From NCBI GenBank assembly GCA_029263455.1, contig JAJCXM010000019.1:62001-126000 (forward strand): DNA of 64,000 bases, read 5' to 3'. The notes under the pieces were generated by a model that was not told where the DNA came from, ran no database searches, and was given only the letters and a program-made list of their open reading frames with translations. A program made the position numbers and the translations under genes. Shown in pieces: positions 1-61,200 of the stretch. Each line of letters opens with the position of its first letter. Position 1 is the stretch's first letter. This DNA comes from Holophagae bacterium (GTDB taxonomy: Bacteria; Acidobacteriota; Holophagae; Acanthopleuribacterales; Acanthopleuribacteraceae).

Positions 1-990
1 GGTTTTCAATGGGGTAACGGGCGCAAAATTCACGAACTATTCAATATCAAAGGCCTTGAATACGAAGCCTACCTGCTCGAATTAATGCACCACAGAATCT
101 GGAGTCGCTTACTGCATATTTTTCACATTGAGCGCACCCAAAACCCCTTCGATATCGTGGCCCAAGTGCAATGGGGTGAAGGAGATACAGCCAGGATGAG
201 TCAATTATTCGAAGGCATTGAGCGTAGTGGTCATAGGGATACTGCAGTCTTTAGACAAGATCGACCCTTCTTTGCCCATATCCATTTGCTTGGCACTCAT
301 GGCGCTAAATTCGAACCGACCCAAGCTGTTTTTTCAAAGGGCAAGACCCAGGACGATTATTGGATGGACGACTATTACGACGATGCCATTCTTGATATGG
401 ACCGTCGCTTTGAGCAAGCGGTTGCGCACCTTAAAGAACTCGGCATATACGGCGAAACATTGATCATCTTCAACTCTGATCACGGCCAAAATTGGCGCAC
501 AGATCGATACCTTCCCCTTATCATTAAGTTTCCAAACAACGAGCACACCGGTAGAAGCTCAGTCACAAGTCAAAGAGTAGATATCCCTACGACCATACTC
601 GATTACCTAGGCAGCCCGATCCCTGAATGGATGGACGGCCAATCGCTGATTGATTCGCCACAAGAACAAACGATTTTCATGGTCAAGAACGGCGATACCT
701 CAACCATTGGTGAACTGGTATTTGCCAAGAACTACATCGCCCCATTCTACAGTCTAGGATCCGTGTCGATCGCTTTCGCAGATGAATCTTATGCACTTAG
801 TCTTATTTCCGGATCACTTTCACATCACACGCTCGATGGCTCTGAAGCGCGGGCCAAAAGAAATAGACAGGACGTATACAAACAGTTGTTTGAGTACCTT
901 GTCGAAAATGGTTACCCAAGGTCAAAAATCCCACCATTGATGGCACTTGTTGCAGAAGACCCCATCATTACGAGCCCAAGGAACCCGTGA
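1..990 (+). CDS. sulfatase/alkaline phosphatase superfamily protein, 3' part only
   Basis: The reading frame is open from base 1, so the N-terminal part, including the usual catalytic formylglycine or threonine region, lies outside the window. The visible 329 codons look like the C-terminal half of a sulfatase-fold hydrolase. The stretch FFAHIHLLGTHG is followed by IIFNSDHGQNW, whose Asp-His pair is the late metal-binding motif of the family. PTTILDYLGSPIPEWMDGQSL matches the conserved segment near the end of the sulfatase fold. Substrate cannot be told: sulfate ester, phosphoglycerol or phosphoethanolamine transfer are all possible. The stop TGA is 33 bp from the convergent stop of the next gene. 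Family assignment is fairly secure; substrate is unknown. Confidence 0.75.
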   Translation, partial: GFQWGNGRKIHELFNIKGLEYEAYLLELMHHRIWSRLLHIFHIERTQNPFDIVAQVQWGEGDTARMSQLFEGIERSGHRDTAVFRQDRPFFAHIHLLGTHGAKFEPTQAVFSKGKTQDDYWMDDYYDDAILDMDRRFEQAVAHLKELGIYGETLIIFNSDHGQNWRTDRYLPLIIKFPNNEHTGRSSVTSQRVDIPTTILDYLGSPIPEWMDGQSLIDSPQEQTIFMVKNGDTSTIGELVFAKNYIAPFYSLGSVSIAFADESYALSLISGSLSHHTLDGSEARAKRNRQDVYKQLFEYLVENGYPRSKIPPLMALVAEDPIITSPRNP

Positions 991-10566: not shown

Positions 10567-13062
10567 TCACAAAGCCCGACGACGGCTCCAAATGACTCCT
10601 ACTAAGGCCAGCAAGCTAATTAACCCCAACAATCCCCAGGTACCAAGTGTGGGAACGGTCATGAAAGGTCCGCCTAGGATCATTTGAGGATTTCCTGCTT
10701 GTGTCACAATGTAGATACTATTGCTTTGACAAATAATTCCTGACACGACTACCGTCCCACCAGCACCTATCACAATCCCTGTCACAAGAAGGGTCCAGTT
10801 GAAAGGATTGGATGAGCCATTGGTCAAATACAGATCAACCACACAGGTCGGCGTTCCAGTGAGCGTCATGGGACCACCGATAACACAGTCGATGGTTACC
10901 GGGCCGCAGAAGTCATCGTTGATGTTGATCGCAGAGACATCTTCTGGATCTAGACCACTATAGTTTGGGTCTAAACTAACCGCCGCTGAGAAGATGATCT
11001 GATACGCCTGATCACCGTCGATCACGGCATCATCCACACCCTGCACCGTTACCATCTGCGGGGTGCCGGCATTGGCTGGCGTAAACACCAGTGACGCCGT
11101 CGAAATCGTGCCTTCGCTAGTATCTGAACTGGTTATGTCAATCGAGACATCTTGAGTAGGGACCGTGTCCAAAGAAACCGTAATGACAGCAGCCGCCTGA
11201 CCTTGGTCTTCAAACGTCGTGATATTAAGGGGTGAAACGCTGATGCCAGCGGCGCCATCGTCATCCGTATTGGTAACTTCCACGTCACTAACATTTGCGG
11301 CCGTGAGTGCGTCATATACGCCATCCACGCTGGTCGGATCGCCGCCAATAATGTGATAAACAACGTCTCCATCGGCATCCACCGGATCATCTTGACCCGT
11401 GACCGTGATCGTTTGGTTGACATCCCAATTGCCAGGCGTAAAGGCAAGCGTCAGGTTTGGCGCAGGTGCTCCGCCACCCGATATCAGTCCTTCGGTTGGG
11501 TCATCGGTAGAAAATGGAATCATCACATCGGCGGTGGGCTCGCTATTCAAAACAACGTCGAAGCTGTCGGTACCGCCAGCTTCGCTGGTTACCAAACCCG
11601 AGGTTGGGTTTACGACAACTCCTGCCATATCATCGTCCAATCGAGTCGCTGTGACATCAGCTACATCAGCCGCCGTCAGTAAATCGTAAGGCGAAGAAGC
11701 GACAGAACTGGTGGGATCACCGGTGATCACGCTGAAGGGCAAATCGCCGTTATCAATGTCATCATCAATGCCGGTTACCGTGACCGTTTGTGGTGTGGTG
11801 TCCGTAAACATGAGAGACATGGTAGACAAAGACGCGATGTTCGGGGAAACGGAAAGCGGCAACGTCACTGTTTCACCAGCGCCTGGCGAGACAGTTAGGT
11901 TCACGTCAAAATTGGCTGTGACGGAGCCGTCTTCGCTGACCGTCAGCCCGGAAACGGGATTGACGGTGATGCCGGCGGATTCATCGTCTTGGTTGGTGAC
12001 ATTAACGGACGCTACAGCCAGACCATCGTAAGCACCATCACCGCTGGATGCCGGACCATTCATAAGCGTATACATGACATCACCGTCGGCGAGCGCATCG
12101 TCTTGTGGGGTCACGGTAACGGTTTGAGGAATGTTCCAGTTGGCGGCGGTAAACATCAACATACTGGTCGAAAGGCTGCCCTCAGATGCATCCGGCATAC
12201 CGATAGGAATATCAACGGAATTGCCACCGGCGGGTGGCGCATCCAGAACAACGTCAAACGAATCTGAAACGCCTGCTTCCGACGTTGTCAAACTAGTGGG
12301 TGAAACACTGATTCCTGGGACCAAGACAGTGCCACCCAACTCAAAAGCAAGGTCAAATTCGGGCGGCGGGTTGCGGTCTCCCGGAATAGTGATATCACAA
12401 TCCGATATTCTTCTTCCCCAAGCAGCGACACAAGTAAAACCACCCCCATTGGCGGGCGGAATAAAACCCAAATTTTGGAACCAAGCACTTTCTAAACCCA
12501 CGGGTGTCCCTGAGTTCGGAGATGAAGAACTCTCAGCCCATCCCCATTGGCCGCCTGTCCCAAAAGCCATATTGACTTGAACGACCAGCCAATAGGTGCC
12601 GGGCAACAAAGTTAAGCCACCAGGGAGATTGATGAGGAAATCACCAGATGAGACATCGGTGTAAGACAGGTTCTCAGCCGCGTAAATAGCACCGGCCGAG
12701 AGATTGGTAGTATCTGGAAGCGAACCCGAGTTACCCAAGATGTAAACGTTGACTGAGTCAGCGGGACCAGCACCATTATGATAGGCGCCCCGAACTTCCA
12801 CAGAATCAATGGTCCAACCGTTTCCCGGAACCGTGAAATCGTCTGCCCCTTGCGAGGTGAAACCAGCGTCGGTGAAGTTCTGCGAGGATATGGTAAATGG
12901 CGCTGGGTTGACAATACCTGAAAAGGTCGAGAACAGGACGGTACCACGACTCTCAACGCTTTCGTTGTCGCTTGAGGAAAAACCTGCTCGTAAGTCATCT
13001 AACTTAATGGTTTGGGCACTTAAACTCATGCTGAATATTGCTAGAACAGTTAATGTTTTCAA
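10567..13062 (-). CDS. secreted repeat protein with C-terminal IPTL-CTERM sorting signal
   Basis: The start is a TTG at 13062 with AGGAG five bases upstream, giving the signal peptide MKTLTVLAIFSMSLSA. Residues about 20-250 are unassigned beta-rich sequence. Then come about four units of roughly 107 residues with the pattern ITVNPVSGLTVSEDGS, LTFTPGNWDVNQTITVTGQDD, DGDVVYHI and VTNTDDD. These resemble Calx-beta-like repeats, and the Asp clusters suggest calcium. The C terminus is VPTLGTWG, a hydrophobic segment, then WSRRRAL: the layout of the IPTL-CTERM signal, which is thought to be processed by an exosortase-type enzyme (XrtH). No exosortase lies in the window. Surface attachment or adhesion is inferred. 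Confidence 0.8.
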   Translation of the reverse strand: MKTLTVLAIFSMSLSAQTIKLDDLRAGFSSSDNESVESRGTVLFSTFSGIVNPAPFTISSQNFTDAGFTSQGADDFTVPGNGWTIDSVEVRGAYHNGAGPADSVNVYILGNSGSLPDTTNLSAGAIYAAENLSYTDVSSGDFLINLPGGLTLLPGTYWLVVQVNMAFGTGGQWGWAESSSSPNSGTPVGLESAWFQNLGFIPPANGGGFTCVAAWGRRISDCDITIPGDRNPPPEFDLAFELGGTVLVPGISVSPTSLTTSEAGVSDSFDVVLDAPPAGGNSVDIPIGMPDASEGSLSTSMLMFTAANWNIPQTVTVTPQDDALADGDVMYTLMNGPASSGDGAYDGLAVASVNVTNQDDESAGITVNPVSGLTVSEDGSVTANFDVNLTVSPGAGETVTLPLSVSPNIASLSTMSLMFTDTTPQTVTVTGIDDDIDNGDLPFSVITGDPTSSVASSPYDLLTAADVADVTATRLDDDMAGVVVNPTSGLVTSEAGGTDSFDVVLNSEPTADVMIPFSTDDPTEGLISGGGAPAPNLTLAFTPGNWDVNQTITVTGQDDPVDADGDVVYHIIGGDPTSVDGVYDALTAANVSDVEVTNTDDDGAAGISVSPLNITTFEDQGQAAAVITVSLDTVPTQDVSIDITSSDTSEGTISTASLVFTPANAGTPQMVTVQGVDDAVIDGDQAYQIIFSAAVSLDPNYSGLDPEDVSAININDDFCGPVTIDCVIGGPMTLTGTPTCVVDLYLTNGSSNPFNWTLLVTGIVIGAGGTVVVSGIICQSNSIYIVTQAGNPQMILGGPFMTVPTLGTWGLLGLISLLALVGVIWSRRRAL

Positions 13063-32457: not shown

Positions 32458-35400
32458 TTACAAAGGAAGTTTGAGCGTTGCAATAGCGCCCGACGGTTTG
32501 CCATTTTCAAGCGTAAGAGTTCCTTTGTGGGCCTCAACAATTTGACGGCTCAAGACCAAACCGACACCATCGCCTTCAGCTTTGGTTGAATAGAAGGGTA
32601 CAAAAAGGTTGTCTGGCGAAAGCACGCCCATCCCATTATCGATAATCTCGATGTGAATCTTGCCAGCGGCCGTAAACCAATTCACCTTGATTTCGGGATT
32701 TGGCGTTTCTAAACATGCTTCCACTGCGTTCTTGACCAAATTGTGCACGGCGTGTCTTAAAAGCATCTCATCGGCTTCGATAAGGACGTCATCCCCTAGT
32801 ACCGCAATACCATCAAACGTTTCAACCACGCTTTCAATGAGGTTTTTGATATTGAAGCTAACGGACTGGAGTTTAGGTGGCCGGGCGATGCTTTCATAAG
32901 TCTTGAGAAAACGCAGTAGTCCATTGGATTCGGTCAGGATGTCGGCCAATAAATGTTGCGTATCAACGCGAGCCTGGTTTGACGGATCGAGGATGAGGGT
33001 CTGAATGGTCTGTGCACTTGATGAGATTGGGGTTAGATGATTTTTGATCTCGTGACTCAAGACCCGTATGAGACGCATCCATGCTCTCTGTTCTTCATCG
33101 CGAACGGTTTGGCTGATGTCAGACAAGGTCAACAGATACTGATTTGTGCCAGAACGTTTGATGCAGAAGCAGTTAACACGCCATTGGCCTTCTTTGCATG
33201 GGAAACTGAGCATGCTTGTTTGATCCACATGATCTGAAACCATCGATTCCAGGTTGAGTGCGCTTGCTCGTTCGCCAATGAGTTGCTTATCTGCAACGCC
33301 GTAAAGTTCACAACCATTTGGGTTGACATATGACAGGTGTTTTTCGTCATCGAAAACGAAAATTGCCACGTCGATGGTGTCAAAGACACGTGTGAATTGT
33401 TGATGCATCTGAGTGACATTCAGCCGGAATCGACGTTCACGCATCAACTCACGACGCTGGAGTCTTACAAATCCAACCATGGCTAACACGAGGCCGATTG
33501 CGTAAAGTAAGTACGCCCACCATGTCTTCCACGGTGGCGGCATGATGTGTAGCTCAAATTGAGCCGGCTCATTTGACCAGACTCCATCTTCATTCGAGCC
33601 TCTGACCCTAAAAATATAATCACCGGCCGGTATGTTGGTATAGGTGGCAACGCGATTATGTGAATCGGTTGCAATCCAATCAGCATCCCATCCCAGTAAC
33701 TGATACTCATATTTGTTCTTGCCAGGGTTGATGAAACTCAAGGCCGCAAACTCAAACGAAAAAAGGTGATCGGTGTAGCTTAGTACCTGTGCTTCATCAC
33801 TAGACATTGATCGCAAATAGTCCGCCTTTGACTCATTCAGAATGGCGAAGTCTGTGATCACCATTTTTGGCGCATTCCGATTCAAACGTATTTGATCGGG
33901 TTCAAAAATATTGATGCCGTTGACGCCGCCAAAGGCGAGCCGATTGTCGGGACCCGCGTGATAGGCCCCCATGTTGAACTCATTGAACTGCAGCCCATCC
34001 ATGTCGTCATAGTTCCGAAAGGTTTGAGCAGTGGGATCAAAACAAGACAATCCAGAAACAGTGCTTATCCATAGCCTTCCGCTGTTATCTTCCAATAACC
34101 CACAAATACGATCGTTGACCAAGCCATTCGACGTCGAATAGCGCGTAAACAGGCCGGATTCGGGGTGATATTCGTTGAGACCACCACCATAAGTTCCTAG
34201 CCAAACTCGACCCTCACGTGAAAGCAACATGCTTAATACGGAGTTATGGCCTAATGATCGGGGTCTATTCTTGTCATGCACAAACGACTTAATGCTGTGG
34301 CGATCGTTGGCAATAACGTTTAGCCCACCCCAGGTGCCAACCGCAACTGCGCCTGCATCAAGTTCTAACAAACAGGTAATTGACGGATGGCTCAAAGATC
34401 CAGGTCCCGACTGATAACGAATCCACGTTTCACCGTCCGATTCCAGTCGATTAAGTCCCTGTACGGTACCAACCCACAATGCGCCGCTTCGATCTTCCAA
34501 CAAGGAAGAACAAATATCGTGACTTAAGCTCCCGGGATCGTTTTGTTGGTGAGGAAAATGCTCCTGAGGCTTATAAAGTTCGTCGAGAAAATAGACGCCA
34601 ACATTCGTCGCCAGTATCCATGATCCATCGTCTCGATGCTGGATGGTGGTAACCGTGGTCGCACCATCAAACGACTGGACCGATTTGGCGTGATTTAGAT
34701 CGTGGGACTCAAAAAGACCATGCTCGGTTCCGATAAGAACGAAATCCCGTGACAGCCAAATGGAATAAATAATACCCATGTCCGAACTAGCTGGATCGGG
34801 AAAGCTGTGACCAAACCTTTCACGATCACTGCTCATGACACTCAGACCATTAGCGGTGCCTATAAACAAGACACCCTCGCGACGAAAGAGCGCTTGAACC
34901 TGATCATGCTTAAGGCTGTCAAAATCAGAATGGTCATGGAGAAATCGGCGCTCAAGCTGACCATCAATGGCGTATCGGATCAAGCCGTTGTGACTCGCGA
35001 CCCAGAGCTTGTCATCGTAGAGAGCCAGGTCAGAAACATATTCGTTGCTGTGGTCTGTTGCAAATGTCGAAAACACAGGCTTGCTATCAGTCATTCGACC
35101 CAAATAGATCCCTCTAGGGGTAGCAATGAAAACGTCACCTGCATCACTCGAAACCAACGCTGTGCAGCCCAATAGCGACTCGTTTGACCGTGTCAGATTT
35201 CCATCGCTCAATATCCAAATACCATCGGCTATGGTGCCAATCCATAAGTTTTGTTGTTGATCCATCAAGAAACAAGTCACGTTAAATGAAGCAAGGTTTT
35301 CAAATTCAGGATCACCAAACAATAACTTTGTTTTCGCATCCGCCTGCTTCAAAACAGCTAGACCTTCGGTGGTTCCAACCAGCAAATCGCCATTGACGCG

Positions 35401-35814
35401 TTCAAACAATGAAAGCACAAAATAGTGCTTTTGATCCTCGGCCGTCTGATTGTCTTCTACTGTCAGAAATCGTGCTTCAATAGGGTCATAAATGAACAGT
35501 CCATCATCGGTGGTTGCGACGGCCAGCATGCCATTACTCAGTCCCTGGATGCAGGTAACGAAGCCGCCCATTTCGGTAAATTGCTTAAACCTGTATCCGT
35601 CAAAACGGGCTAATCCGGCCTGAGTAGCCACCCAAACGTAACCATCCGTTGTGACCGTTAAATCAATAATCGTGTTTTGCGGCAATCCGTTTCGCTGTGT
35701 GAAATTATCGAATCGAATATGCGATTGTGAGAATCCCGTGCTGCATAAAAGGAAAAGGAACCACAAGGTTGGCTGCCTAAATCTCGTGCTTCTGTAAGCG
35801 CCGATACATTGCAC
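32458..35814 (-). CDS. Reg_prop/Y_Y_Y sensor histidine kinase with PAS domain
   Basis: 1118 residues. A signal peptide (FLFLLCSTGFSQ) is followed by about 12-14 two-component-regulator-propeller blades (NGLPQNTIIDLTVTTDGYVWVATQ, WIGTIADGIWIL, LWVGTVQGLNRLE). A Y_Y_Y domain follows (YEYQLLGWDADWI, YTNIPAGDYIFRVRGSNEDGVW), then one membrane segment (WWAYLLYAIGLVLAMVGFV). Inside the cell come a PAS domain, the H-box LSHEIKNHLTPISSSAQTI, the N-box VHNLVKNAVEACLE and G boxes IIDNGMGV and GDGVGLVLSRQIVEAH. The kinase core looks NtrB/NtrY-like, which suits a sigma-54 regulator. The GTG start overlaps the regulator gene by 38 bp; TTG 35766 is an alternative. The ligand is unknown, but propellers of this type often sense glycans. 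Confidence 0.9.
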   Translation of the reverse strand: MQCIGAYRSTRFRQPTLWFLFLLCSTGFSQSHIRFDNFTQRNGLPQNTIIDLTVTTDGYVWVATQAGLARFDGYRFKQFTEMGGFVTCIQGLSNGMLAVATTDDGLFIYDPIEARFLTVEDNQTAEDQKHYFVLSLFERVNGDLLVGTTEGLAVLKQADAKTKLLFGDPEFENLASFNVTCFLMDQQQNLWIGTIADGIWILSDGNLTRSNESLLGCTALVSSDAGDVFIATPRGIYLGRMTDSKPVFSTFATDHSNEYVSDLALYDDKLWVASHNGLIRYAIDGQLERRFLHDHSDFDSLKHDQVQALFRREGVLFIGTANGLSVMSSDRERFGHSFPDPASSDMGIIYSIWLSRDFVLIGTEHGLFESHDLNHAKSVQSFDGATTVTTIQHRDDGSWILATNVGVYFLDELYKPQEHFPHQQNDPGSLSHDICSSLLEDRSGALWVGTVQGLNRLESDGETWIRYQSGPGSLSHPSITCLLELDAGAVAVGTWGGLNVIANDRHSIKSFVHDKNRPRSLGHNSVLSMLLSREGRVWLGTYGGGLNEYHPESGLFTRYSTSNGLVNDRICGLLEDNSGRLWISTVSGLSCFDPTAQTFRNYDDMDGLQFNEFNMGAYHAGPDNRLAFGGVNGINIFEPDQIRLNRNAPKMVITDFAILNESKADYLRSMSSDEAQVLSYTDHLFSFEFAALSFINPGKNKYEYQLLGWDADWIATDSHNRVATYTNIPAGDYIFRVRGSNEDGVWSNEPAQFELHIMPPPWKTWWAYLLYAIGLVLAMVGFVRLQRRELMRERRFRLNVTQMHQQFTRVFDTIDVAIFVFDDEKHLSYVNPNGCELYGVADKQLIGERASALNLESMVSDHVDQTSMLSFPCKEGQWRVNCFCIKRSGTNQYLLTLSDISQTVRDEEQRAWMRLIRVLSHEIKNHLTPISSSAQTIQTLILDPSNQARVDTQHLLADILTESNGLLRFLKTYESIARPPKLQSVSFNIKNLIESVVETFDGIAVLGDDVLIEADEMLLRHAVHNLVKNAVEACLETPNPEIKVNWFTAAGKIHIEIIDNGMGVLSPDNLFVPFYSTKAEGDGVGLVLSRQIVEAHKGTLTLENGKPSGAIATLKLPL

Positions 35815-37132
35815 TACGACTCAATCCAAGAGCCTTGGCGGTCTTTGTGATGTTTCCTTGATTCTCCTTCAAAGTTCGCTTGATCATGTAACCTTCTATG
35901 TCCAATAAACTCATGCAGTTCAATGAAGTTGTCGGAGACATATCGGGATTTGCATAGTTCGCATGATCAAAAATGGATGCATTTTGGCCCAGCAGTATCA
36001 TGCGTTCCATCGCATGTTCTAGCTCTCTGATGTTCCCTGGCCATGAGTATTGCAGTAAATCAGCTTCCATGCGCGCTGTCAGTTTGAGAACGGGTTTTCG
36101 ATATTTCTCGGCCAAGCGCGCCAGAAAGAATCGTGACAGTACGGGGATATCTTCTAAGCGTTCGCGTAGCGGCGGCATGGTGATTTCAATGGTATTGAGT
36201 CGGTAATAAAGGTCACGACGAAAGCGGCCTTCTTCGATTTCAGTTGTCATCGTGGCGTTGGTTGCCGAAACAATGCGGACATCACTTTGATAGGTCTTTG
36301 ATGATCCCACCGGCTCATACAAACCCATCTCAAGAACCCGCAATAACTTGTTCTGTTGTTTCAGGGGAATGTTGGCGATCTCATCTAGGAAGAGTGTGCC
36401 TTCTTCGGCCATCTCAAAGCGACCGACTCGATGGTCACGAGCATCAGTAAAGGCGCCTTTCACGTGTCCAAACATCTCACTTTCAAAAAGGCCTTCTGAA
36501 AGCCCGCCCGTATTGACGGCGACAAAGGGTTTCTCAAAACGACGCGACCGTTGATGAATCATTTTGGCCAACAAACTCTTGCCAGTTCCGTTCTCACCTA
36601 AAATAATGATACTGGCATCACTGTCAGCCACATTTCTTACCAGATTTAGGATCGACTGCATCGCTGGCGACTCCGCGACCATCGTAGAAACACTTTGATT
36701 TAGATCTTGTTTCAGTTGTGCGCGATATCTTTGTACGTGGCTCTCTGATTTTTGTAACTTCACCAAGTTGTTAACACTTGCCAGCAAACGATTATTGTCC
36801 CAGGGTTTTTCTACAAAATCCTGGGCGCCTCTTCTCATCGCCTCGACGGCTATTTCAACATTGCCAAAAGCCGTGATTACTAGGACTGGAACATTGGGCG
36901 CGATTTGTTTGATTTGTTCCAACAGCGCTAATCCTTCGGTTCCGGAGGTTGTATCCCGCGTGTAATTAAGGTCGATGATAAGCAAGTGCATGAGTTCTTT
37001 GCGAATTGTTTCAAGCACAGATTCAGGACCATCGGCCTCATAGACTTTGAATCCATGGTGCCTTAAGAATACGTGTAATGAATGGCGGATTGTTTTCTGA
37101 TCATCAGCGATCAATATTTTGTACGCAAACAT
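35777..37132 (-). CDS. NtrC-family sigma-54-dependent response regulator
   Basis: ATG 37132, preceded by GGGGAAGG, is chosen over an upstream in-frame start. 451 residues: receiver domain with acidic pair Asp10-Asp11, phosphorylation site Asp54 (LLIIDLNY) and Lys in FVEKPW. An AAA+ domain follows with Walker A GENGTGKS, a GAFTDA loop in place of GAFTGA, Walker B GTLFLDEI and an arginine-finger region FRRDLYYRLN. A Fis-type helix-turn-helix ends the protein (NITKTAKALGLSRSAMYRRL). The GAFTDA variant keeps the Phe-Thr that contact sigma-54. It is first in the operon with the Reg_prop kinase and divergent from the giant surface-protein gene. Confidence 0.95.
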   Translation of the reverse strand: MFAYKILIADDQKTIRHSLHVFLRHHGFKVYEADGPESVLETIRKELMHLLIIDLNYTRDTTSGTEGLALLEQIKQIAPNVPVLVITAFGNVEIAVEAMRRGAQDFVEKPWDNNRLLASVNNLVKLQKSESHVQRYRAQLKQDLNQSVSTMVAESPAMQSILNLVRNVADSDASIIILGENGTGKSLLAKMIHQRSRRFEKPFVAVNTGGLSEGLFESEMFGHVKGAFTDARDHRVGRFEMAEEGTLFLDEIANIPLKQQNKLLRVLEMGLYEPVGSSKTYQSDVRIVSATNATMTTEIEEGRFRRDLYYRLNTIEITMPPLRERLEDIPVLSRFFLARLAEKYRKPVLKLTARMEADLLQYSWPGNIRELEHAMERMILLGQNASIFDHANYANPDMSPTTSLNCMSLLDIEGYMIKRTLKENQGNITKTAKALGLSRSAMYRRLQKHEI

Positions 37133-37214
37133 TAACCTTCCCCTAATTGACTCATCACATTCCTGTGGGCGCAAGACAATCGCAACGCGGATCATCACCA
37201 GCTGGGTAGAAAAG

Positions 37215-37230
37215 AGCAAGTTTCCTGCCC
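37215..37230 (-). promoter_or_regulatory. probable sigma-54 promoter of the regulator-kinase operon
   Basis: Minus strand GGGCAGGAAACTTGCT, matching TGGCACG-N4-TTGCW at 10 of 12 positions with GG-N10-GC intact. Transcription would start near 37204, about 70 bases before the regulator ATG. Both enhancer-like motifs lie 68 and 90 bp upstream, which would make the operon autoactivated. Confidence 0.55.
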
Positions 37231-37389: not shown

Positions 37390-37486
37390 CGTGTGCAGAA
37401 ATGGCACGCTCGAACACACACATGCTTGGCTACTAGTAGATGTTTGCATGATTGTCACTGCAAACACATTTGCAAGGGAGACCGTC

Positions 37487-40400
37487 TTGAAGAGAATACA
37501 GCTCCACGTTTCAGGACTCATCATATTTTCACTTTTGCTGTCGAGTGCTTTGGGCCAAGAACCGCTAGGACCACCTGTTAATCTCAAAACGTTTCAACTG
37601 TTGATTGATGTCGACCGAGATCAGGGAACTGGACTGGACCTAATTCTCAATGATGGCGTGACACAGGCAATGGGAATCGAATTGCTAACAACCGTCACCG
37701 TGTTGGCAGGCAATTCACCACAAGTCACACGTGTTGAGGCTCAAGAATGGGATGGCAACGCTGGATTCTCAGCACCCTATTTCGTTGATAGCAGTGGTTG
37801 GGCGGTCGGCATAGATAATGGATTCAGCGGCGGCGACGTGACTGAAGCCTACATGCCGTTGGACAAATTTGGTGAAAACTACGTAGTCAATTTTTACGTG
37901 CAAAGTGGTCAATTGGGATCAGCCCACGACGTCATAGATCCCGTTTGGTTCAGTTTTGACATTCCCATACCCACCTTGTCATTTTGGATGCTCGCCGCTT
38001 TCATTTTGTTGATGGTTATTCTGGCATTATGGATGTCGCGTGGTCGATTGAGAATGCGCCATGGGATCATGCTGATTTTTGCGGGTCTTTTCCTGGTGGC
38101 GGCTGCTGGCGCGATTGTACTTGACGGTCAAGTCAATGACTGGACGGACCCTCCTATTGCTACAGACCATATTGATGACGCCGGTGAAGACGCCGTTGAC
38201 TTACTTGCCTTTTTTGTCTGTCATGACGAGCAAAATTTGTTTTTCCGTTTTGATGTCGAGGAACTTGAGAATCAATCTCCGGTAGCCGGTGACCTAACAA
38301 TCAGCCTCCTCGAAGATACGGCAACGCTTGTTTCCTTAACAGCATCGGACGCCGATGGAGACACGCTCACCTTTTCCATCATCAGTAATCCGAGCTTTGG
38401 GACACTTGGGTCGCTAACTTCCACAGGTCCAAATTCTGCAGATATTACCTACACGCCCAACGCTGATGTTGCGGGTATGGACAGTTTTACTTTCTCGGTT
38501 GATGACCTGAATGGCGGGACTGCGGTTGGATTGGTTGACATCACCATTACAGCCGTGAACGACGCACCTAGCTTTACGCCCGGTCCAGACCTATCCGTTC
38601 CCAAAGGCAGTGGCCCATTCACGAGTGCGGCCTGGGCCAGCGCAGTTTCTCCCGGTGCATCGAATGAAGCGAACCAGACACTTCAATTTCAAGTGTCAGT
38701 CAGCAGCAATCCACAAGTGTTTTTGGTGCCCCCTACCATCGACCCTGTCTCCGGTGATTTGACATTTACGCCCGACAGCGACATGAATGGCACGGCAACC
38801 ATTGATGTTTTTCTGATGGATGATGGAGGTACCGCGAATGGTGGACTGGACACGTCTACGATTCATTCGTTCAATATTGCCGTTGGATCCGTGAACGATG
38901 CACCCAGCTTCGTGGCCGGTAGCGACGTTATCAACAATGAAGATGATGGGATGATCATGGTCAACAGTTGGGCTACAGCCATTTCGCCAGGGCCACCCGA
39001 TGAATCAGGACAAATCCTCAATTTCACGGTCAATAACATCCAGGATCCTGATGGCATTTTTGCCACGCCACCCGCGCTTGACGTAAATAGTGGAGACCTT
39101 ACCTACACCCTGGCCGCAGATCAGTTTGGCGCTGCAACCGCCGATATCACGCTGATGGACGACGGGGGTACGGCCAATGGTGGGATCGATGTTTCCCCGG
39201 TTCATACACTCATGGTGACGGTCAATTCCATCAACGATGCACCCACTTTTTCGCACGCTGGAAATGTCGACGTTCCCAAGAGTGGCGGCATAGAACTTCT
39301 CCCCGCATGGGCATCAAGCCTAGCGGTGGGTCCCGCCAATGAAGCGGGACAAACACTACTTGGCTTTACCGTTTTGGTCGTGAGTGACGCTAATAACGTG
39401 CTTACGGTCATGCCTACGGTGGACTTAATAACTGGCGATCTGAGCTTTGCCACCGACGTGAATAATAATGGCACGGCCACCATCGAGCTTACGCTGCAGG
39501 ACGATGGCGGCACCGCCAATGGCGGCTTAGACACCTCCATACCCGTCATGATCGACATCAACGTTTTGGCAGTCAACGATCCACCCAGTTTCACAAAGGG
39601 TCCAGACATCATCATTGATGAGAACGCCGGGCCGCAGACTTTCAACCCATGGGCAACTGGCATATCCGCTGGTCCACCCGATGAAGCGGGACAAACGCTT
39701 ACTTTCAACGTAACCGCGAATTCGAATTCGGCGATCTTTATGTCACCACCTGCCATCGCTGCGGATGGGACTTTAACTTTTGAATCTGCACCGGGTGCTC
39801 ACACAGGAATGCCAGCTACGCCGGTCGAATTAACCATCGAATTGATGGATAGTGGCGGCACGGCCAACGGCGGTTCAGATACATCAGGTCCACAAATGTT
39901 CACCATCAGGATCAATCCCGTCAATAGTCCCCCAACCGCTACGGACGATTCGTACGACGCAGCCGTGAATACGCGTCTTGAAGTCGGGACCTCGACTGCC
40001 GCACTTGGTCACAAGATAGCGGGCAGCGTGCTCACCGACGGCGTGATGGACAGTGATCCAGACGGCCCGGGCCCGCTTATTGTGGTCGGTACAAGCAACG
40101 TCACTGCGGGCGCTTCCGTTGCCATGAATGCAGATGGCAGTTTTACTTATTCGCCTCCGCCTGGCATGACAGGCTCAGACACTTTCGATTACACCATCAC
40201 CGACCAAGACCCTATCCTTCCACTTACCGATACAGCCACTGTGACCATCAATCTGTATGATTCGATATGGTACGTAAAGAACGATCATGCCGGGCCGAGC
40301 CAAGGCACCTCCGATAATCCCTTTCAATCGCTCGCGGAAGCCGAGTCCGCTTCAGCACCAAACGATAAAATCTTCTTATTTATTGGCGATGGCAACATCA

Positions 40401-43400
40401 CAGGCCAGAACTCAGGTATCACCCTGAAAAATGGACAATCATTGTTAGGTGAACGAGTCGACCTGGACCTCGATATCAACGGCAATATGAGCACCATTGT
40501 CATAGGGACAGCCAACAGCACGTTAGCGCCTAGGATAGGAAACGCGGCCGGTGATGTGGTCATTCTTGCTGACGACAACACCGTTGCTGGCCTAATTATG
40601 TTACCCACAGCAAGTGCAGGCATTAGTGGTTCCGGGGCGATGACTAAGAAAACGAGCGTCAACTCTGACGCTGCGGCTACCATCAAACCAGGTGACAAAC
40701 GCGCTGGCGGCACGACCCTCATCGAGCAAATCGTTATTAACCCCAGTACGTCGAGTGATGGCCTAGTTTTGCTGGCTCAAACTGGCGCGTTAAGTTTGGC
40801 CGATATTGAGATTGTTGGGCTTGCCGGTAACAGCGGCACGGGGCTTATTCTTGAGAATTGTTCGGCGTCATTTTCGCTAGATAATTTAACAATCTCTGAT
40901 GTTGGTATAGGTGTGTCGCTAGTCACAAATAGTGTAGCGATCGACTTCAGCAACACGTCAGTCATGAATTGTTCGTCAACCGCTATTGAGGTTGATAACC
41001 AGGACGATGCGACGTTTGCAGCCACATGCAGTGTCAACCAAACGGGATTAGGAAGTGCGGCAAGTGTTATAGGAGGAAATGGAACCCTAGCATTCTTAGG
41101 GCCGATTACCGTAAACAGTTTAGGTGCTGGATTTAGCGCTATAGAAATCGATGGCAATAGCCAGGACCCAACCATAAATTTTGCCGACATAAGCATTGAC
41201 GCAAGCGCTGGCAATCACGCAATCCACGTCATGGGTATGGGCATGAACAGTGCTATCAACTTTAATGGTGTGCTCGACGTCAACGGCGCTGGAATCCACG
41301 GGCTCTTCCTTGAGAATTCCAACGGGTCGCTGGACATCGTCGACGCCACTAGCGACATCGCCAACGCGATGGATACTGGCGTAAGAATAGATAGCGGATC
41401 TCCTTCTTTAGCCATCAACGGCAGCTTAACTAACAACGAGACCTCCGTGCACGTAACAAACTTGGCTGGCGGCACCACCCAGTTTGCTCAACTGATTGCT
41501 ACCGGTTCATTTAGTTCAGGTTTTATCGCGGACAACTGCGCCGGCACGCATACGGTTAACCTTGCAAATTTAGGCAGTAATGCCAATCGACTAACAAACA
41601 GCGGTATTCAAATCAATGCATGCACTGGCCAATTCGTGATGAATGACATCAATATCTTCTCCAACGGAATTGGCTTGGACATCAGTGGTGGAAATCCGGA
41701 TGTCGACATTATGGATTCAGGCACAATCTCCTCATTGAACAGCTTGGATACGGTCGTTTCCGCCGATGCAGGCTCTCTCGACGGGTCGTTCACTAACCTT
41801 ATAGCCAACACTACCGCTGGCGTTGCGCCCGGCATCTCGTTAACAGGGGCCGCAGGCACCATCACTTTCCAAGACGTCGACATCCAAAGCTTATCGGGAA
41901 CAGGCATTTTGATTGATGGCGGCTACACGGCTACTTTCTCTACAGCCAATACCATTAACGTAGCCACGACAAGTGGCACCGGTATTGATATCCAAAATAC
42001 GACGAACAGTGGCGCGATCGATCAAGTGGTTGTGAGCGCTGGACTGTCCGGTGGCATCAACCTAAACAACAACTCGGGATCACTCTCATTCGGATTGATT
42101 GACCTCACAATGATTAATGGATACGGAATTCGCGCTCTCAATAGTGGGACCCTGGATGTGACCAACAGCACCAGCTCAATTGCGTGTGTGTCAGGAGGAT
42201 CAGCCTTAGAATTGAACGGAATCACTATCGGTGCAAGCAATATGAATTTCGCGAGCGTCTCGGCCACATTACCGGGAGCCACCAACGAAGGGATTGATTG
42301 TGATTCGGTCGCAGGGACATCACTGATTATTGGTGACACAACCATTACAACCACGAGCGTAAATGGCGGAAACGGCATCGATATTGATTCGAGCTCAGCG
42401 ACCTTTGTGTTTAACTCGGCAACCATCAACACAGATACGCATGTCGGTATTAACTTGACCAATAATATGAGCGCCAGCTTTAGCTTCAATAATTGTGATA
42501 TTGATACGACAAGTGGGACCGGCTTCAATGCCAGCGGCGGCGGAATGATTAGCGGTTCTGGTAGCAACCAAATCGATACGACAACAGGTCGCGCCATACA
42601 AATAGATGGCAGTAATATTGGTGCTGGTAACTTCAGCTTGCAAAGTGTGAATAGCAATGGCGCCGTCAATGGCATAAGACTAAACAACACGGGTTCTGCC
42701 GGTGGTTTGATTGTTACCGGCACGGGCACCAATGACTCGGGTGGCAATATTCAGAACTCGACTTCAGACGGCATTTTCATCAACAACACCGTTAGTTTCA
42801 GTCTGACCGACATGCAAATTAATAACTCCACAGTTAGTCATATCCAAATGTCAAATAGCAATGCTGTGACCCTTAACGGTATCGACTTTTTCAGCTCCGG
42901 TTTTCATGGCATCGTCGGTAGCAGCGTTACGGCACTGAATATGACCAACTGTGGAGTTGATTTGAGCGGCAATAGTGCCAATGAACACGGCCTTCGAATT
43001 ATTAACTTGCTCGGTTCGAGCAACATCACTTCGAATGATTTTACGCGCTCACAAACGATACAATTCTTTGTACAAAATACGGCCGCAAGTATTAACGCAC
43101 CAGCAGCACCGACTGATATCCTCACCTTTGACGACAATAGTTTCTCAATGCCAGGCGCCACATTCGGCGACAATATATCCATCGAATCCGCAACCACTGG
43201 AAATATGCGTGTCGTGCTCGATGACAGCGTGGGTCAAAACACCTTCGTGGGTGGAATCGCAGGAATTCAGGCCGTAACCGCAACAGGCGGCACACTCGAC
43301 GTCGTCATCGATAACATCGATGTCCAAACGACTTCGGGTTCCGGCATCAATTTAGGTGGTTTCAATGCCAGCGACCTCACCTTTGACGTGCGCAACAGTG

Positions 43401-43960
43401 AAACATTGAATACCGGCAGCATTGGTATTAATGCCACCAGCATCGGTGGTGCGATGGTTTCGGGCATCATTGACAACAACACCATCAACGGTTCCACCAC
43501 TGGCCAAGGCATTCAGGTGATCACCGAAGGCAACGGCGACATTACAGCCACGGTTAGTAACAATACGATCTCAAACATCAACCAGGAGCATGGTATTCGT
43601 GTGCAAGCGAGGGCTGGAAGTGGGACCATTAACATCACCATCAATGACAACGACGTCAACAATCTTGCAGCACCTTTCCCCTTGGAAGGCATATACGTGG
43701 AATCCGGTTCCAGTGCTGGCGGCGATACCAACACCATTTGCCTAAACATGTTTAATAACACGAGTGCGGCCAATTTTAACGAAGGTTTTCGGCTACGGCA
43801 TCGTGCAGGTGCAACCTTCAACCTACAAGATTTTGTTGGGGTGGGGTCAAATCCTGCCGATGTAACCACTTGGATCAACACCACCAAGTCAAATATAGGA
43901 ACGACCCAAATCACAGGGACAGGATTCACCGCAGCGGGTGGATCCTGCCCAACGCCTTAA
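37487..43960 (+). CDS. giant surface protein: internal IPTL motif, second membrane segment, cadherin-like repeats, beta-helix
   Basis: I start it at TTG 37487, with AAGGGAG six bases upstream and a signal peptide (LKRIQLHVSGLIIFSLLLSSALG); the frame stays open further upstream without a ribosome site. The product is 2157 residues. Residues 25-158 are an unassigned beta-rich domain. IPTLSFW at 161-167 is followed by a hydrophobic stretch and RGRLRMR, exactly like a C-terminal IPTL-CTERM signal. The protein then continues with a second hydrophobic segment (LIFAGLFLVAAAGAIVL) and a short DOMON-like domain (DGQVNDWTDPPIATDHIDDAGED). After that come one cadherin-like repeat, four units of about 107 residues (each opening NDAPSF-like and containing DDGGTANGG), one tandem-95/VCBS-like repeat, and about 1200 residues of Asn/Ser/Gly-rich right-handed beta-helix. 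No C-terminal anchor is seen. Probably an adhesin or glycan-active surface protein under sigma-54 control. Confidence 0.85.
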   Translation: MKRIQLHVSGLIIFSLLLSSALGQEPLGPPVNLKTFQLLIDVDRDQGTGLDLILNDGVTQAMGIELLTTVTVLAGNSPQVTRVEAQEWDGNAGFSAPYFVDSSGWAVGIDNGFSGGDVTEAYMPLDKFGENYVVNFYVQSGQLGSAHDVIDPVWFSFDIPIPTLSFWMLAAFILLMVILALWMSRGRLRMRHGIMLIFAGLFLVAAAGAIVLDGQVNDWTDPPIATDHIDDAGEDAVDLLAFFVCHDEQNLFFRFDVEELENQSPVAGDLTISLLEDTATLVSLTASDADGDTLTFSIISNPSFGTLGSLTSTGPNSADITYTPNADVAGMDSFTFSVDDLNGGTAVGLVDITITAVNDAPSFTPGPDLSVPKGSGPFTSAAWASAVSPGASNEANQTLQFQVSVSSNPQVFLVPPTIDPVSGDLTFTPDSDMNGTATIDVFLMDDGGTANGGLDTSTIHSFNIAVGSVNDAPSFVAGSDVINNEDDGMIMVNSWATAISPGPPDESGQILNFTVNNIQDPDGIFATPPALDVNSGDLTYTLAADQFGAATADITLMDDGGTANGGIDVSPVHTLMVTVNSINDAPTFSHAGNVDVPKSGGIELLPAWASSLAVGPANEAGQTLLGFTVLVVSDANNVLTVMPTVDLITGDLSFATDVNNNGTATIELTLQDDGGTANGGLDTSIPVMIDINVLAVNDPPSFTKGPDIIIDENAGPQTFNPWATGISAGPPDEAGQTLTFNVTANSNSAIFMSPPAIAADGTLTFESAPGAHTGMPATPVELTIELMDSGGTANGGSDTSGPQMFTIRINPVNSPPTATDDSYDAAVNTRLEVGTSTAALGHKIAGSVLTDGVMDSDPDGPGPLIVVGTSNVTAGASVAMNADGSFTYSPPPGMTGSDTFDYTITDQDPILPLTDTATVTINLYDSIWYVKNDHAGPSQGTSDNPFQSLAEAESASAPNDKIFLFIGDGNITGQNSGITLKNGQSLLGERVDLDLDINGNMSTIVIGTANSTLAPRIGNAAGDVVILADDNTVAGLIMLPTASAGISGSGAMTKKTSVNSDAAATIKPGDKRAGGTTLIEQIVINPSTSSDGLVLLAQTGALSLADIEIVGLAGNSGTGLILENCSASFSLDNLTISDVGIGVSLVTNSVAIDFSNTSVMNCSSTAIEVDNQDDATFAATCSVNQTGLGSAASVIGGNGTLAFLGPITVNSLGAGFSAIEIDGNSQDPTINFADISIDASAGNHAIHVMGMGMNSAINFNGVLDVNGAGIHGLFLENSNGSLDIVDATSDIANAMDTGVRIDSGSPSLAINGSLTNNETSVHVTNLAGGTTQFAQLIATGSFSSGFIADNCAGTHTVNLANLGSNANRLTNSGIQINACTGQFVMNDINIFSNGIGLDISGGNPDVDIMDSGTISSLNSLDTVVSADAGSLDGSFTNLIANTTAGVAPGISLTGAAGTITFQDVDIQSLSGTGILIDGGYTATFSTANTINVATTSGTGIDIQNTTNSGAIDQVVVSAGLSGGINLNNNSGSLSFGLIDLTMINGYGIRALNSGTLDVTNSTSSIACVSGGSALELNGITIGASNMNFASVSATLPGATNEGIDCDSVAGTSLIIGDTTITTTSVNGGNGIDIDSSSATFVFNSATINTDTHVGINLTNNMSASFSFNNCDIDTTSGTGFNASGGGMISGSGSNQIDTTTGRAIQIDGSNIGAGNFSLQSVNSNGAVNGIRLNNTGSAGGLIVTGTGTNDSGGNIQNSTSDGIFINNTVSFSLTDMQINNSTVSHIQMSNSNAVTLNGIDFFSSGFHGIVGSSVTALNMTNCGVDLSGNSANEHGLRIINLLGSSNITSNDFTRSQTIQFFVQNTAASINAPAAPTDILTFDDNSFSMPGATFGDNISIESATTGNMRVVLDDSVGQNTFVGGIAGIQAVTATGGTLDVVIDNIDVQTTSGSGINLGGFNASDLTFDVRNSETLNTGSIGINATSIGGAMVSGIIDNNTINGSTTGQGIQVITEGNGDITATVSNNTISNINQEHGIRVQARAGSGTINITINDNDVNNLAAPFPLEGIYVESGSSAGGDTNTICLNMFNNTSAANFNEGFRLRHRAGATFNLQDFVGVGSNPADVTTWINTTKSNIGTTQITGTGFTAAGGSCPTP

Positions 43961-55026: not shown

Positions 55027-55235
55027 GGACTCAACATTACCCGTATGCGTCAACTGTTGAAGGAATCTGTATTCAAGAACACATTTGTTAATGAACTAAC
55101 TGCACATAACTCAGGTGTTGGTACTCATGGTGGGAACAGCTTTGTTGCGCAGTAGTTACGCGAATCACCTTTATTTGCACGTGAGTCTTTGAAATAATGA
55201 CAGGCCTAAGTCTGCCATTATCGAGGTCGTCGTTC

Positions 55236-58200
55236 ATGTCATTTGTAAAAAGTTCGTTTGCTCATTTGAAACTCATTTCTTTGCTTTTGTTGGCTTGCGG
55301 ATGGGTAAAAGCACAACCGGCTATTGGCGGCGCCAAGAACGCATCCAATACGGGTCGAGAAATTACTTATGACATTTACATCGAAAATTTGGGCGACGAA
55401 GTACTGCAAAACATTTCAGCACCAGACGATCTAGACGCGGCCTTTGGCATGAACAACTATGCGATTATTGCTGCCCCTTCTTTTATCATCAATCCGGGAA
55501 CGCTTACCCTGAACGGATCATTTAATGGCAGCGGCAATACGGAACTGATCGCTTCGGGCACCTTGGCCGTCGGCGCCATAGCGCAAATCCAATTTATCGT
55601 TGACGTCACGGTCATCTCCGACCAAGGAATGGGTCCTGGTATCTACAGTAACCAAGTCACTGTCTCTGGAGAAGACATGAGCATGACAACTCAAAGTGAT
55701 TTAACCGATTGGGGTACCGATCCCGACCCCAACGGCAACGGCGATGCTTCCGATGCTGGTGAGGATGACCCGACCATCGTTGATATTTTTGAAGTTCCCA
55801 TCATCGGCGTTGGTAAGAAGGTAACGCTGAGCGGAACACAAATCACGTTTGATTTTTTCTTAGAAAACTTTGGCAACCGCACCATGGTGAATCTGAACAT
55901 GCCTGACGATTTAGATGCGGTTTTTGGAGCCGGAAACTACGTAATCGTCTCTCCTCCCGCCTTAATCGATGACCCGGGCACGATCACCGTTAACGCGGCA
56001 TTCAATGGCAGCGCCATGCAACAACTGATTACTAGCGGAAGTTTAAACGTCATGGACACCGCCCAAATTCGCGTCGTACTTAATGTCACCACGGTCTCTG
56101 ACGTGGGCTTAGGATTAGGCGTTTACGAGAATCAGGTACTCGTGTCAGGACAAACCAGTCTTGGCACCTTCACGAGCGATTTGTCTGACAACGGTGCGGA
56201 GCCAGACAGCGATGGCGATGGTGACCCAACCGACCCTGACGAAGATGACCCAACCCGCTTTACCATCGGTTCGGAAGCAGCAATTGGCGTCGCCAAAACC
56301 GCGTCCGTCTTAAACAGCCAAGTAACCTTTAATTATTATCTAGAGAACTTGGGCAACGACCCTATTTCCGCGATGTCGTTACCTGACAATCTGGACAACG
56401 TGTTTGGCGCCAGCAATTATCAAATCATCGTCGCACCTGCCTTCATTGATGATCCAGGGACGATAACCCTTAACCCCGGCTTTGACGGCATTGGCAACTC
56501 ACAGTTACTTGTACCTGCATCGAGTTCCCTAGCTGTCGGTGACACGGCGCAAATTCAAATGGTCATCAGAATCAACAACTTAAGTGATCAAGGCTTAGGC
56601 TTAGGCAACTATCGCAACCAGGTCACGGCGACAGCACAAGGTCTTGGCGGTGCCGTGACTGACGATACTTCCGATGATGGAACGGATCCAGATCCCAATG
56701 GCAACGGCGACCCTGCAGAGCCAGGTGAGAACGACCCAACCGACTTTACGGTTGCCCAATTGCCCATCATCGGCTTAGCAATGGACGTCAATGTGGTGGG
56801 TTCAACGGGCGCTACGATTAACGTTGGCGGGATGAACATGCCCGGATTCGGTCCGCGGGTCTACATCAACTACTATATAGAAAACTTAGGCAATGTGACC
56901 CTGTCTAACCTCATTCTTGACAATGATTTGGACGCCGTTTTTGGCGCCGGCAACTATGGCACTATCGTTAGTGCCAGCCTTCCTACTATTCTCTATAGCG
57001 ATGGCGGATTGAATGTAAACACCAACTTCAATGGTTCCACGTTACAAAACATCCTGACGGGTGCAAGCACCATTGGGGCAGGCGAAATCGCAGCCATCCG
57101 CGTTGAATTACTAGTGACTAATATTACCGACCAAGGCATGGGCATAGGCGTTTACCAGAACCAAACGTCGATTTCGGGTGAAGGTCCTAGCGGTGGTATG
57201 ACCAGCGATCTTTCTGACGAAGGTAACGTGGCAGACGCCAACAATAATGGTGACCCGACGGATGCTGGCGAAGACGATCCAACTATTTTCGTGCTTGGCT
57301 CGTTCATTGGGGCAGCCAAAGACGCAAGTGTCGCAGGCAATCAAATCACCTTTGATCTTTACCTTGAAAACTTTGGTACCATCCAGCTCAACAACCTATC
57401 ATTGGATGACAATCTGGCCGGTGTATTTGGTGCGGGAAACTTTATTATTTCAGTAGCGCCTTTCTTCGTAGACGATCCGGGCACCATTGCCTTAAATATG
57501 AGCTTTGATGGTTCTGGTGATCGCGAGCTTATAGCTCCAGGAAGTACGCTAGCCAGTCTGGACACAGCGCAAATTCAGTTTGAAGTAACGGTCCTCAAGT
57601 TAATTACCCAAGCCAATGCCCTAGGCGCATATAGTAACCAAGCACAGGCCGCTGCGACCCAAGCAGGCGGTATTGTTGTATTGGATTCCTCCGAAACAGG
57701 CACAGACCCTGACCCTAATGGCAACGGCGATCCCACCGAATTTGGCGAAAACGATCCGACACCATTTACAGTGACGACCGATGCCATGGTGGGAGCTGCA
57801 AAAACGGCAACGGCCACTGGAACCCAGGTCACCATCGACATCTACCTGGAGAGTTTTGGCACGGCGACCACGACTGGACTGATAATGCCGGACAATCTAG
57901 ATGCCGTCTTTGGGGCTGGTAACTATACGATTTTCAGTGCTCCGACTCTTGTGGACGACCCTGGGACACTCGTTCTTAACGGTGCATTTAACGGCAGCGG
58001 TAACACAGAATTGTTGGCAGCAGGTAGTACGTTAAATGCCTTAGACACAGCCCAGATTCAATTCGTGGTTGATGTCACCAATATTGTCGATCGCGGCTTT
58101 GGCATCGGCATTTATGAAAATCAAGTCTTGGTGACCGGCTTAGATTCAACCGGTTTGATTGTATGTGATTTATCAGATTCAGGCACAGACCCAGATATCA

Positions 58201-61200
58201 ATGGCGATGGCGATCCAACGTTCCCTGGTCTAGCTGATCCGCCACTCGACGGCGAAAATGACATCACCCGCTTTATCATTGGTGAAGCGGTGATTGGGGC
58301 AGCTTACCATTCAGCCGTAAGCGGTAATTTCATCACCTACGACTATTACTTGGAGAATCTAGGTGACGTGACGGTCTCAAACATCAGTGTTAGTCAATCT
58401 CTAATCGGCGTATTTGGTTTCGGGAACTTCACCATAAGTACCGCGCCGTTTTTTATCGACGATCCTGGAACCTTGAGTTTGGTCACGGCGTTCGACGGCA
58501 CATTTGTCACAACCCTTATTTCTAACGGTACCCTCGCTCCTGGCGATACCGCGCGTATTAGGTTAGTGCTTAACGTCACCAACCCTGCCATGGGGCCAAA
58601 CTATACGACTCAATTCACCGTAAACGGTATTTCACCAGTGGGCTTGATAGTTTCCGACCTCTCCGATAATGGCATCGTCACCGATCCCGATGGCGATGGT
58701 AACCCCAGCGAAGCCGGTGAAGACGATCCCACGATTAGCATCATCGGCATCGAGTCAATCCTTGGCGTTGCTAAAAACGCGTCAGTCAGCGCGATGCAAG
58801 TTACGTTTGATTATTATCTCGAAAACTTAGGCAATGTGGTTGTCGCATCCTTAAGCCTGACCGATGATCTGGACACGGTGTTTGGCGCAGGGAATTACAC
58901 GATTAATTCGGCACCTACTCTGATAGATGATCCCGGGACAATTGTGGCTGATGTAACATTCAACGGTAGTTTCCAGCAATCGATGATTTTGCCAGGAAGC
59001 ATCTTAAATCCCTCCGATACCGCACAAATCCGACTCGTAATCGATGTATTGACTATCGCTGATGTGGGTCTTGGTTTCGGCCAGTACAGTAACCAAGTCA
59101 TGGCGGGCGGCATCGGGCCTACCGCAACCGTCACGCAAGACCTATCCGACTTCGGCACTGACCCAGATCCTAACGGAAATGGCAACCCAAGTGACGCTGG
59201 AGAAGGCGATCCCACAACGTTTAGCCTGGTAACCCCTGAAGTAGGCATCGCAAAATCGGCAAGCATCGCTGGCCAGCAAGTGACCTTTGATTTCTACATC
59301 GAGAATCTTGGCAATGTCATTCTCGACTCCTTTAGTCTTTTCGAAGATTTGGACGCCGTCTTTGGTGCAGGAAACTACACACTGGACAGTGGTCCTGTGT
59401 TCGTCACTGTGCCGCGCAATCTCGTGCTAAACCCCAGTTTTGATGGCGTTTCCGATATGCAAATGATTGCCTCTGGCACCATGGATCCGGGCATTACGGA
59501 GCAAATTCGCATTGTGGTGACGGTAAATACGTTGATTGATAGTGGCATGGGCAACGGTGTCTATTCAAACCAAGTGACCGTGAACGCTGCTGGACCAGGT
59601 CCTTCACCGGTGTCCGACATATCAGATATGGGAATTAATCCAGACCCCAACGGTAATGGTGACCCGACAGATGCAGGCGAAGATGATCCAACCATATTTG
59701 GAATTCCCGAGAATCCTGTCATCGGCGTGGCCAAGACGGCAGCCGTTAACGGTCGCACAGTGACAATGGATATTTACCTTGAAGCTTTTGGTAACGTTCC
59801 TTTGAACACGCTCTCCGTGGTGGAGGACCTGAATGCCGTTTTTGGGGCTGGTAACTACGCCATTACCTCAGCGCCAGCACTCATTGTTAATCCCGGAACC
59901 ATAACACTCAATGGTGGTTTCAACGGCGGCGCAACTACTGATCTACTAACACCAAGCACTTTGGCGATTGGAGCAACGGCTCAAATTCGCTACGTGATCG
60001 ATGTGACAACCGTGTCAGACCAAGGATTTGGTATAGGAAGTTACTTCAATCAAGTTACAGCATCTGCCTTTAGTCCCGATGGTGCGCCTACATCCGATAT
60101 TTCCGACAATGGTACAGATTCGGATCCAAACGGTAATGGCGACCCTGACGAAGCGGGCGAAAACGATCCCACGCCAATCATCCTAGAATCAGACATCGGC
60201 GATTTCGTTTGGAACGACTTGAACGGTGATGGCATTCAAGACGGCGGCGAGCCGGGACTGGCCGGTGTCATTATCTACTTAGACCTCAACACGAACGGAA
60301 CGTTAGATGGCGGGGAACCATCTGATACTACTGACGGCGCGGGCGCATACTTATTCACCAATCTGGCGGCAGCGAGCTATACCGTTCGTGTCGAACTGAG
60401 TACCGTTCCCGCCGGATTCGTTTTGACGTCAGCAAACAACCCAACTGTCGTAATGCTGTCAGCGGGCGAAGTCTATGCCGACGCCGATTTCGGATTCCAA
60501 CAACAGGACGCCATGATTGGCGATTTCGTGTGGAACGATCTCAACGGCAACGGCATTCAAGATGGTGGCGAGCCAGGACTAGCCGGTGTCACCGTCTATC
60601 TGGACCTCAACTCAAACAGCGTATTTGATGGTGGCGAACCGAATGATACCAGCGATGGTGTCGGCGCTTATGCCATTACAAACCTAGCAATCGGGATCTA
60701 TACAGTTAGAGTCGATCCGACAACGGTACCCGCTGGATTTGTCCTTACCAGCGCAAATATTCCTTTGAGCGTGCCGCTGGCGGCCGGCGATAACTTCATG
60801 ACCGCCGATTTCGGTTATCAACAACAGGACGCGACCATTGGTGACTTTGTCTGGAACGATCTCAATGGTGATGGTGTTCAAGATGGTGGCGAGCCGGGCC
60901 AACCAAGCGTTACCGTTTTCATCGACTTGAACACTAATGGCGTTCTGGACGGAGGAGAGCCAACAGCCATGACTGACGGAGCCGGAGCCTACGACTTCAT
61001 CGCCCTGGCTGCAGGAACTTATTCGATTCGAATTGACCTAACGACGATTCCAGCTAACTTTGGGTTGACCACCTTGAATCCTGTATCGGTTTCTTTGGCT
61101 GCCGGTGAAGACTTCAACGACGCCGACTTTGGCGTTCAACAACAAGATGCCACCATCGGAGATTTCGTGTGGGACGATCTTAACGGCGACGGCGTGCAAG

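Follow-up and report, generated by a model that had tools for sequence, protein, structure and literature searches.

A conserved IPTL-type sorting signal inside a giant repeat protein of the Acidobacteriota and its possible processing by an exosortase-H-like enzyme

Exosortases are believed to process C-termini at sorting signals located at the C-terminal end of their substrates. One gene in the window, by which we mean the whole stretch of 64,000 nucleotides from a Holophagae bacterium that was analysed, raises the question what such a signal does near the start of a protein. The gene (37487..43960, + strand) codes for 2157 amino acids and starts with a TTG preceded at a distance of 6 bases by a ribosome-binding-site-like sequence, AAGGGAG (37474..37480, +). 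The signal is found at residues 161-187, not at the C-terminus, and is followed by about 1970 residues. A preliminary description suggested that an IPTL-CTERM protein had been fused in frame to a second secreted protein, and that one gene would give two products if an exosortase-like enzyme cuts at the signal.

All parts of the protein are encoded on the + strand. It begins with an N-terminal signal peptide, LKRIQLHVSGLIIFSLLLSSALG, followed by QEP (residues 1-23, 37487..37555); the cleavage site was placed by reading the sequence, and homologues have AxAQ-type ends. A predicted extracytoplasmic beta domain with the pattern FxxxIDxDxxxxTG...DVxEA.xP (the N-domain, residues 24-158, 37556..37960) comes next; the domain of one homologue was searched against Pfam and gave no match. 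Residues 161-193 (37967-38065) read IPTLSFWMLAAFILLMVILALWMSRGRLRMRHG, in agreement with the preliminary description, and combine the IPTL motif with a membrane helix and a basic cluster. On the basis of sequence, profiles and conservation the motif itself (residues 161-164, 37967..37978) is the proposed site where exosortase H (XrtH) recognizes or cuts the protein. The helix, TM1 (residues 166-184, 37982..38038), is also a helix in the AlphaFold model, and the loop RGRLRMRHG after it (residues 185-193, 38039..38065; SRGRLRMRHG with the residue before it) is predicted to be cytoplasmic. Residues 194-214 read IMLIFAGLFLVAAAGAIVLDG. Here a second helix, TM2 (residues 194-209, 38066..38113), ends with AAAGA and resembles an internal signal peptide, judged from the model, the alignment and a count of end motifs; it runs into IVLDGQVNDW, the start of a segment with the pattern LDG..DW....FRFD (the LDG segment, residues 210-257, 38114..38257). 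It has its homologue in the opening part of a domain which in other proteins comes after N-terminal signal peptides. The rest of the protein is made of cadherin-like or tandem-95 repeats (38270..40150; Pfam PF17963, PF17892 and PF17803, NCBIfam NF012211) and a repetitive, probably beta-helix-like C-terminal part (40151..43957) which ends GGSCPTP. A C-terminal sorting signal is absent from the window protein and from all ten homologue 3' ends that were read, in full or in part.

The window contains two other IPTL proteins, and they carry the same kind of signal at the C-terminus, as the preliminary description had stated. One (10567-13062, - strand) ends with VPTLGTWGLLGLISLLALVGVIWSRRRAL and the other (55197-62663, + strand) with VPTLGPWMLGLMVIALMVVAIRRNRSFSV; the latter has 2488 residues with SdrD-B-like repeats, and its C-terminal VPTL signal is an ordinary one. 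A profile search found ten IPTL_CTERM matches above the cut-off in the whole genome.

The internal copy is weak when it is scored alone. The fragment of the window protein gives 18.9 bits (E 0.0014) against TIGR04174 (IPTL_CTERM), which is below the cut-off of 20.5, so conservation must carry the case. The equivalent positions of several relatives far exceed this cut-off, for example with 37.2, 34.5, 31.9 and 29.8 bits. The resemblance to the TIGR04174 and exosortase H (TIGR04177) system comprises the motif, the hydrophobic helix, the basic cluster and the presence of an exosortase-H-like enzyme in the genome; the difference is that the IPTL-CTERM signal is C-terminal there and close to the protein start here. 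The idea of a cut in the middle of a protein is not new. It is already proposed in the name of the NCBIfam family NF033207, "midcut-by-XrtH protein", with which we compare the window protein by name and model alone; in the open-access papers searched, neither midcut-by-XrtH nor exosortase H nor an exosortase signal inside a protein was the subject of any publication. Like the members of that family the window protein has an IPTL-type signal in mid-protein and a second helix, and profile positions 36-93 align to its residues 160-217. It scores 19.9 bits (19.1 for the fragment alone) where the cut-off is 45; two homologues from other genomes reach 45.3 and 47.0 bits. The last third of the profile, beyond about position 117, is unmatched in every member tested, and the window protein and most of its relatives differ from the family in being giant repeat proteins of 2000-3700 amino acids. 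By curated score the window protein is outside NF033207, and by homology to members it is of the same kind: a real and conserved giant variant of a named, apparently unpublished kind of mid-cut protein. Its C-terminal part belongs to the same broad class as the tandem-95 or cadherin-like surface proteins (NF012211, PF17963), but ordinary proteins of that class are not known to carry an internal sorting hairpin.

The arrangement turned out to be conserved. A module consisting of N-domain, IPTL motif with TM1, basic loop, TM2, LDG..DW..FRxD segment and, in most cases, cadherin-like repeats follows a signal peptide in constant order at 21 loci with the hairpin (TM1, loop and TM2) in two acidobacterial classes; the searches were confined to Acidobacteriota, where they took in Holophagae, one further class and a phylum sample. 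The basic cluster is present in 21 of 21 loci and the spacing from IPTL to DG is 50-56 residues in all of them. The IPTL or VPTL motif is kept in nearly every one, and 11 aligned sequences share without exception the motif's P and L, one R in the basic loop, and DG and DW in the LDG segment. Judged by this recurrence at 21 loci with such a narrow spacing, the internal module is not a product of chance. Both the internal signal and the export-like segment behind it, noticed in the preliminary description from a single protein, are in this way confirmed as features of a family. The module occurs several times in the genome to which the window belongs and also in relatives of the same family, with three copies in Sulfidibacter corallicola (Acanthopleuribacteraceae). 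Five copies in the window's own genome (contigs C7, C17, C20, C23 and C36) lie at or near contig ends, probably because several near-identical giant genes break the assembly.

An enzyme that could use the signal is encoded in the genome. One XrtH-like gene was found (contig C14, 1405-1881) which scores 77.9 bits against TIGR04177, the best of all exosortase models, with a cut-off of 86. All 14 aligned XrtH-like sequences keep the Cys (NNCNG), the Arg (EMRL) and the His (FHETFWQ), and 14 of the 15 genomes with the hairpin contain such a gene. It should be noted that most genomes of the second class have XrtH with or without the module, so the co-occurrence of enzyme and hairpin is uninformative. 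No mid-protein IPTL was found near the XrtH gene in three genomes, within the 11-14 kb examined.

In much of the family the second helix has ends that resemble signal peptidase sites, and it may act as an internal signal peptide. Substrates of signal peptidase I have a basic n-region, a hydrophobic core and small residues at -3 and -1. In 12 of 16 non-redundant hairpins a small-x-small pattern lies within the six residues that precede the LDG segment, compared to 2 of 16 at the ends of TM1 and 3 of 16 in the middle of TM2. Shuffled TM2 segments give a mean of 6.6 and reach 12 in 0.6% of the trials (p about 0.006), an optimistic figure, the test region having been picked after inspection of the alignment. 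In the second class several TM2 ends read AWA or YAA where the LDG segment begins, much as signal peptidase I sites ordinarily do, and the AAAGA of the window protein fits small residues at -3 and -1. Independent support comes from five secreted proteins of another architecture, whose N-terminal signal peptide leads straight into the same LDG..DW segment. This occurrence in unrelated proteins fits a fusion in which the second partner was the beginning of a secreted protein.

The preliminary description asked whether the halves also exist as separate genes. They were looked for in Holophagae, in the phylum sample and in the second class, and a separate gene was found for neither half. Every N-domain that could be seen far enough precedes an LDG segment in the same reading frame, and the apparent N-domain-only matches, where the sequence was read, run into contig ends. 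In one protein family, from eight genomes and in part from a ninth, N-domain and LDG segment are joined in one reading frame by a short linker, RRR, RRH or similar, and the hydrophobic segment is absent. A basic linker of this kind was read at nine hairpin-less loci, often as PI[LM][YFW]P and then RRR or RRH; this linker may be what is left of the basic loop, or else a site for a protease. In a tree of N-domain plus LDG segment with midpoint rooting the family is one clade (100/99) nested among the hairpin proteins. This suggests that both helices were lost in one event, although the root is not firmly placed. Most of the hairpin-less genomes retain XrtH. With this clade it is clear that the halves can function without being separated; together with the failure of the halves to occur as separate genes, this argues that they act together.

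From the anatomy, the conservation, the presence of the enzyme and the homology to members of NF033207 we infer the following topology, cleavages and association of products. The protein, with its internal IPTL signal, would be a giant repeat-built surface protein, and we give this reading a probability of about 0.55. The N-terminal signal peptide would export the N-domain. TM1, carrying the IPTL signal, would then cross the membrane from outside to inside and leave the basic loop in the cytoplasm, and TM2 would cross back to re-start the export of the LDG segment and the repeat region of about 1900 residues. The exosortase-H-like enzyme would most likely cut at or near IPTL, so that the new C-terminus of the N-domain is processed. 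TM2 would then either remain as a membrane anchor or act as a signal peptide within the chain, at which signal peptidase I would cut in some members of the family at least. N-domain and LDG segment would probably stay together after processing, because they are always found in the same chain. It counts against this explanation that the window protein lies under both curated cut-offs and its XrtH under its own, and that the hairpin-less clade keeps the halves joined though most of its genomes have XrtH.

The main rival hypothesizes a plain membrane hairpin through which the protein, left uncut, is anchored to the inner membrane, the likeness to IPTL being ancestral or structural. Conservation of both helices together with tight spacing, and their loss at one time, are what any hairpin would show; moreover the motif of the window protein is weak, and several members have M or L in place of the G that follows the W. 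However, the IPTL/VPTL motif is itself conserved, beyond mere hydrophobicity, several members lie above the IPTL_CTERM cut-off, and the TM2 ends resemble signal peptidase sites; we regard an uncut anchor as unlikely. The preliminary description had named a conserved two-helix hairpin unrelated to sorting as the finding that would speak against it; the hairpin is conserved, but it does not look unrelated to sorting. At the other extreme the fusion might release two free and independent products. The resemblance of TM2 plus LDG segment to the start of a secreted protein, the cleavable look of the TM2 ends and the very existence of NF033207 agree with this, and the XrtH-like enzyme has its Cys, Arg and His intact. 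This is at variance with the lack of a separate gene for either half in the acidobacterial searches and with the clade that joins them without a hairpin, which means that the halves need not be set free as two independent products; the structural model below also hints that the halves share one sandwich. Free products are quite improbable. The original fusion idea has partial support, in the conserved internal signal and the resemblance to a secreted protein's start; in the searches made, the halves did not occur as separate genes.

Structure prediction bears on the association of the halves. AlphaFold2 with four sequences gave a best model with pLDDT 73 and pTM 0.68 (the other four models 55-60), in which the N-domain is a beta domain, the helices number two and the LDG segment contributes two strands; from a single sequence the pLDDT was 42. 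This low-depth model suggests that both halves share one beta-sandwich, so that the products of a cut might stay associated. Foldseek found no match at E <= 0.001 to the PDB or to viral models. VIA-align gave weak matches to galectin- and C2-like sandwiches (Z about 4, spans 7..227) which run from the N-domain to the first strand of the LDG segment, a hint but no proof that the LDG strands join the sheet of the N-domain. Another possibility is that the halves are a circular permutation of a domain of known order, with the LDG half first and DxDxxTG second, and that the sorting hairpin lies at the new junction. By hhalign the LDG segment matches the first part of that other-order domain with a probability of 98%, and a short RLxxDxDxxxTG stretch matches its second part with 31% (E 5e-4). 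The permuted profile comparison was collinear, yet 31 of 200 column-shuffled controls scored as high and certain rotations scored higher; not supported above these controls, the permutation is kept as a rather doubtful rival. A tentative elaboration of the preferred reading, which we consider rather unlikely, places the sorting hairpin inside one composite beta-sandwich. Once XrtH had cut and a second cut had followed behind TM2, the chains would remain joined as a nicked domain, the processed N-domain would tether the giant repeat chain to the surface non-covalently, and one clade would have switched to an uncut single chain.

If the cut at the internal signal is real, exosortases would do more than trim protein ends: they would make two products of the envelope from a single bacterial polypeptide, and the hairpin-less clade would be a natural uncut control. 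The family is a concrete set of candidate substrates for exosortase H, an enzyme for which no published experimental study was found in the open-access papers searched.

Two observations concern neighbouring genes. Upstream of the giant gene a divergent pair (32458-37219, - strand) codes for a two-component sensor with propeller repeats and an NtrC-like sigma-54 activator; the intergenic stretch between the divergent regulator and the giant gene gave no match to a sigma-54 promoter. A gene for the signal peptide peptidase SppA is located directly 5' of the XrtH-like gene in six genomes. SppA degrades leftover signal peptides and could clear the hairpin after cutting. In a single genome with XrtH and no module there is no SppA gene beside XrtH within the 1.5-kb flank. 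In the genome of the window, where the first 14,000 nucleotides of contig C14 were read, the XrtH-like gene lies 7 bases downstream of the SppA gene.
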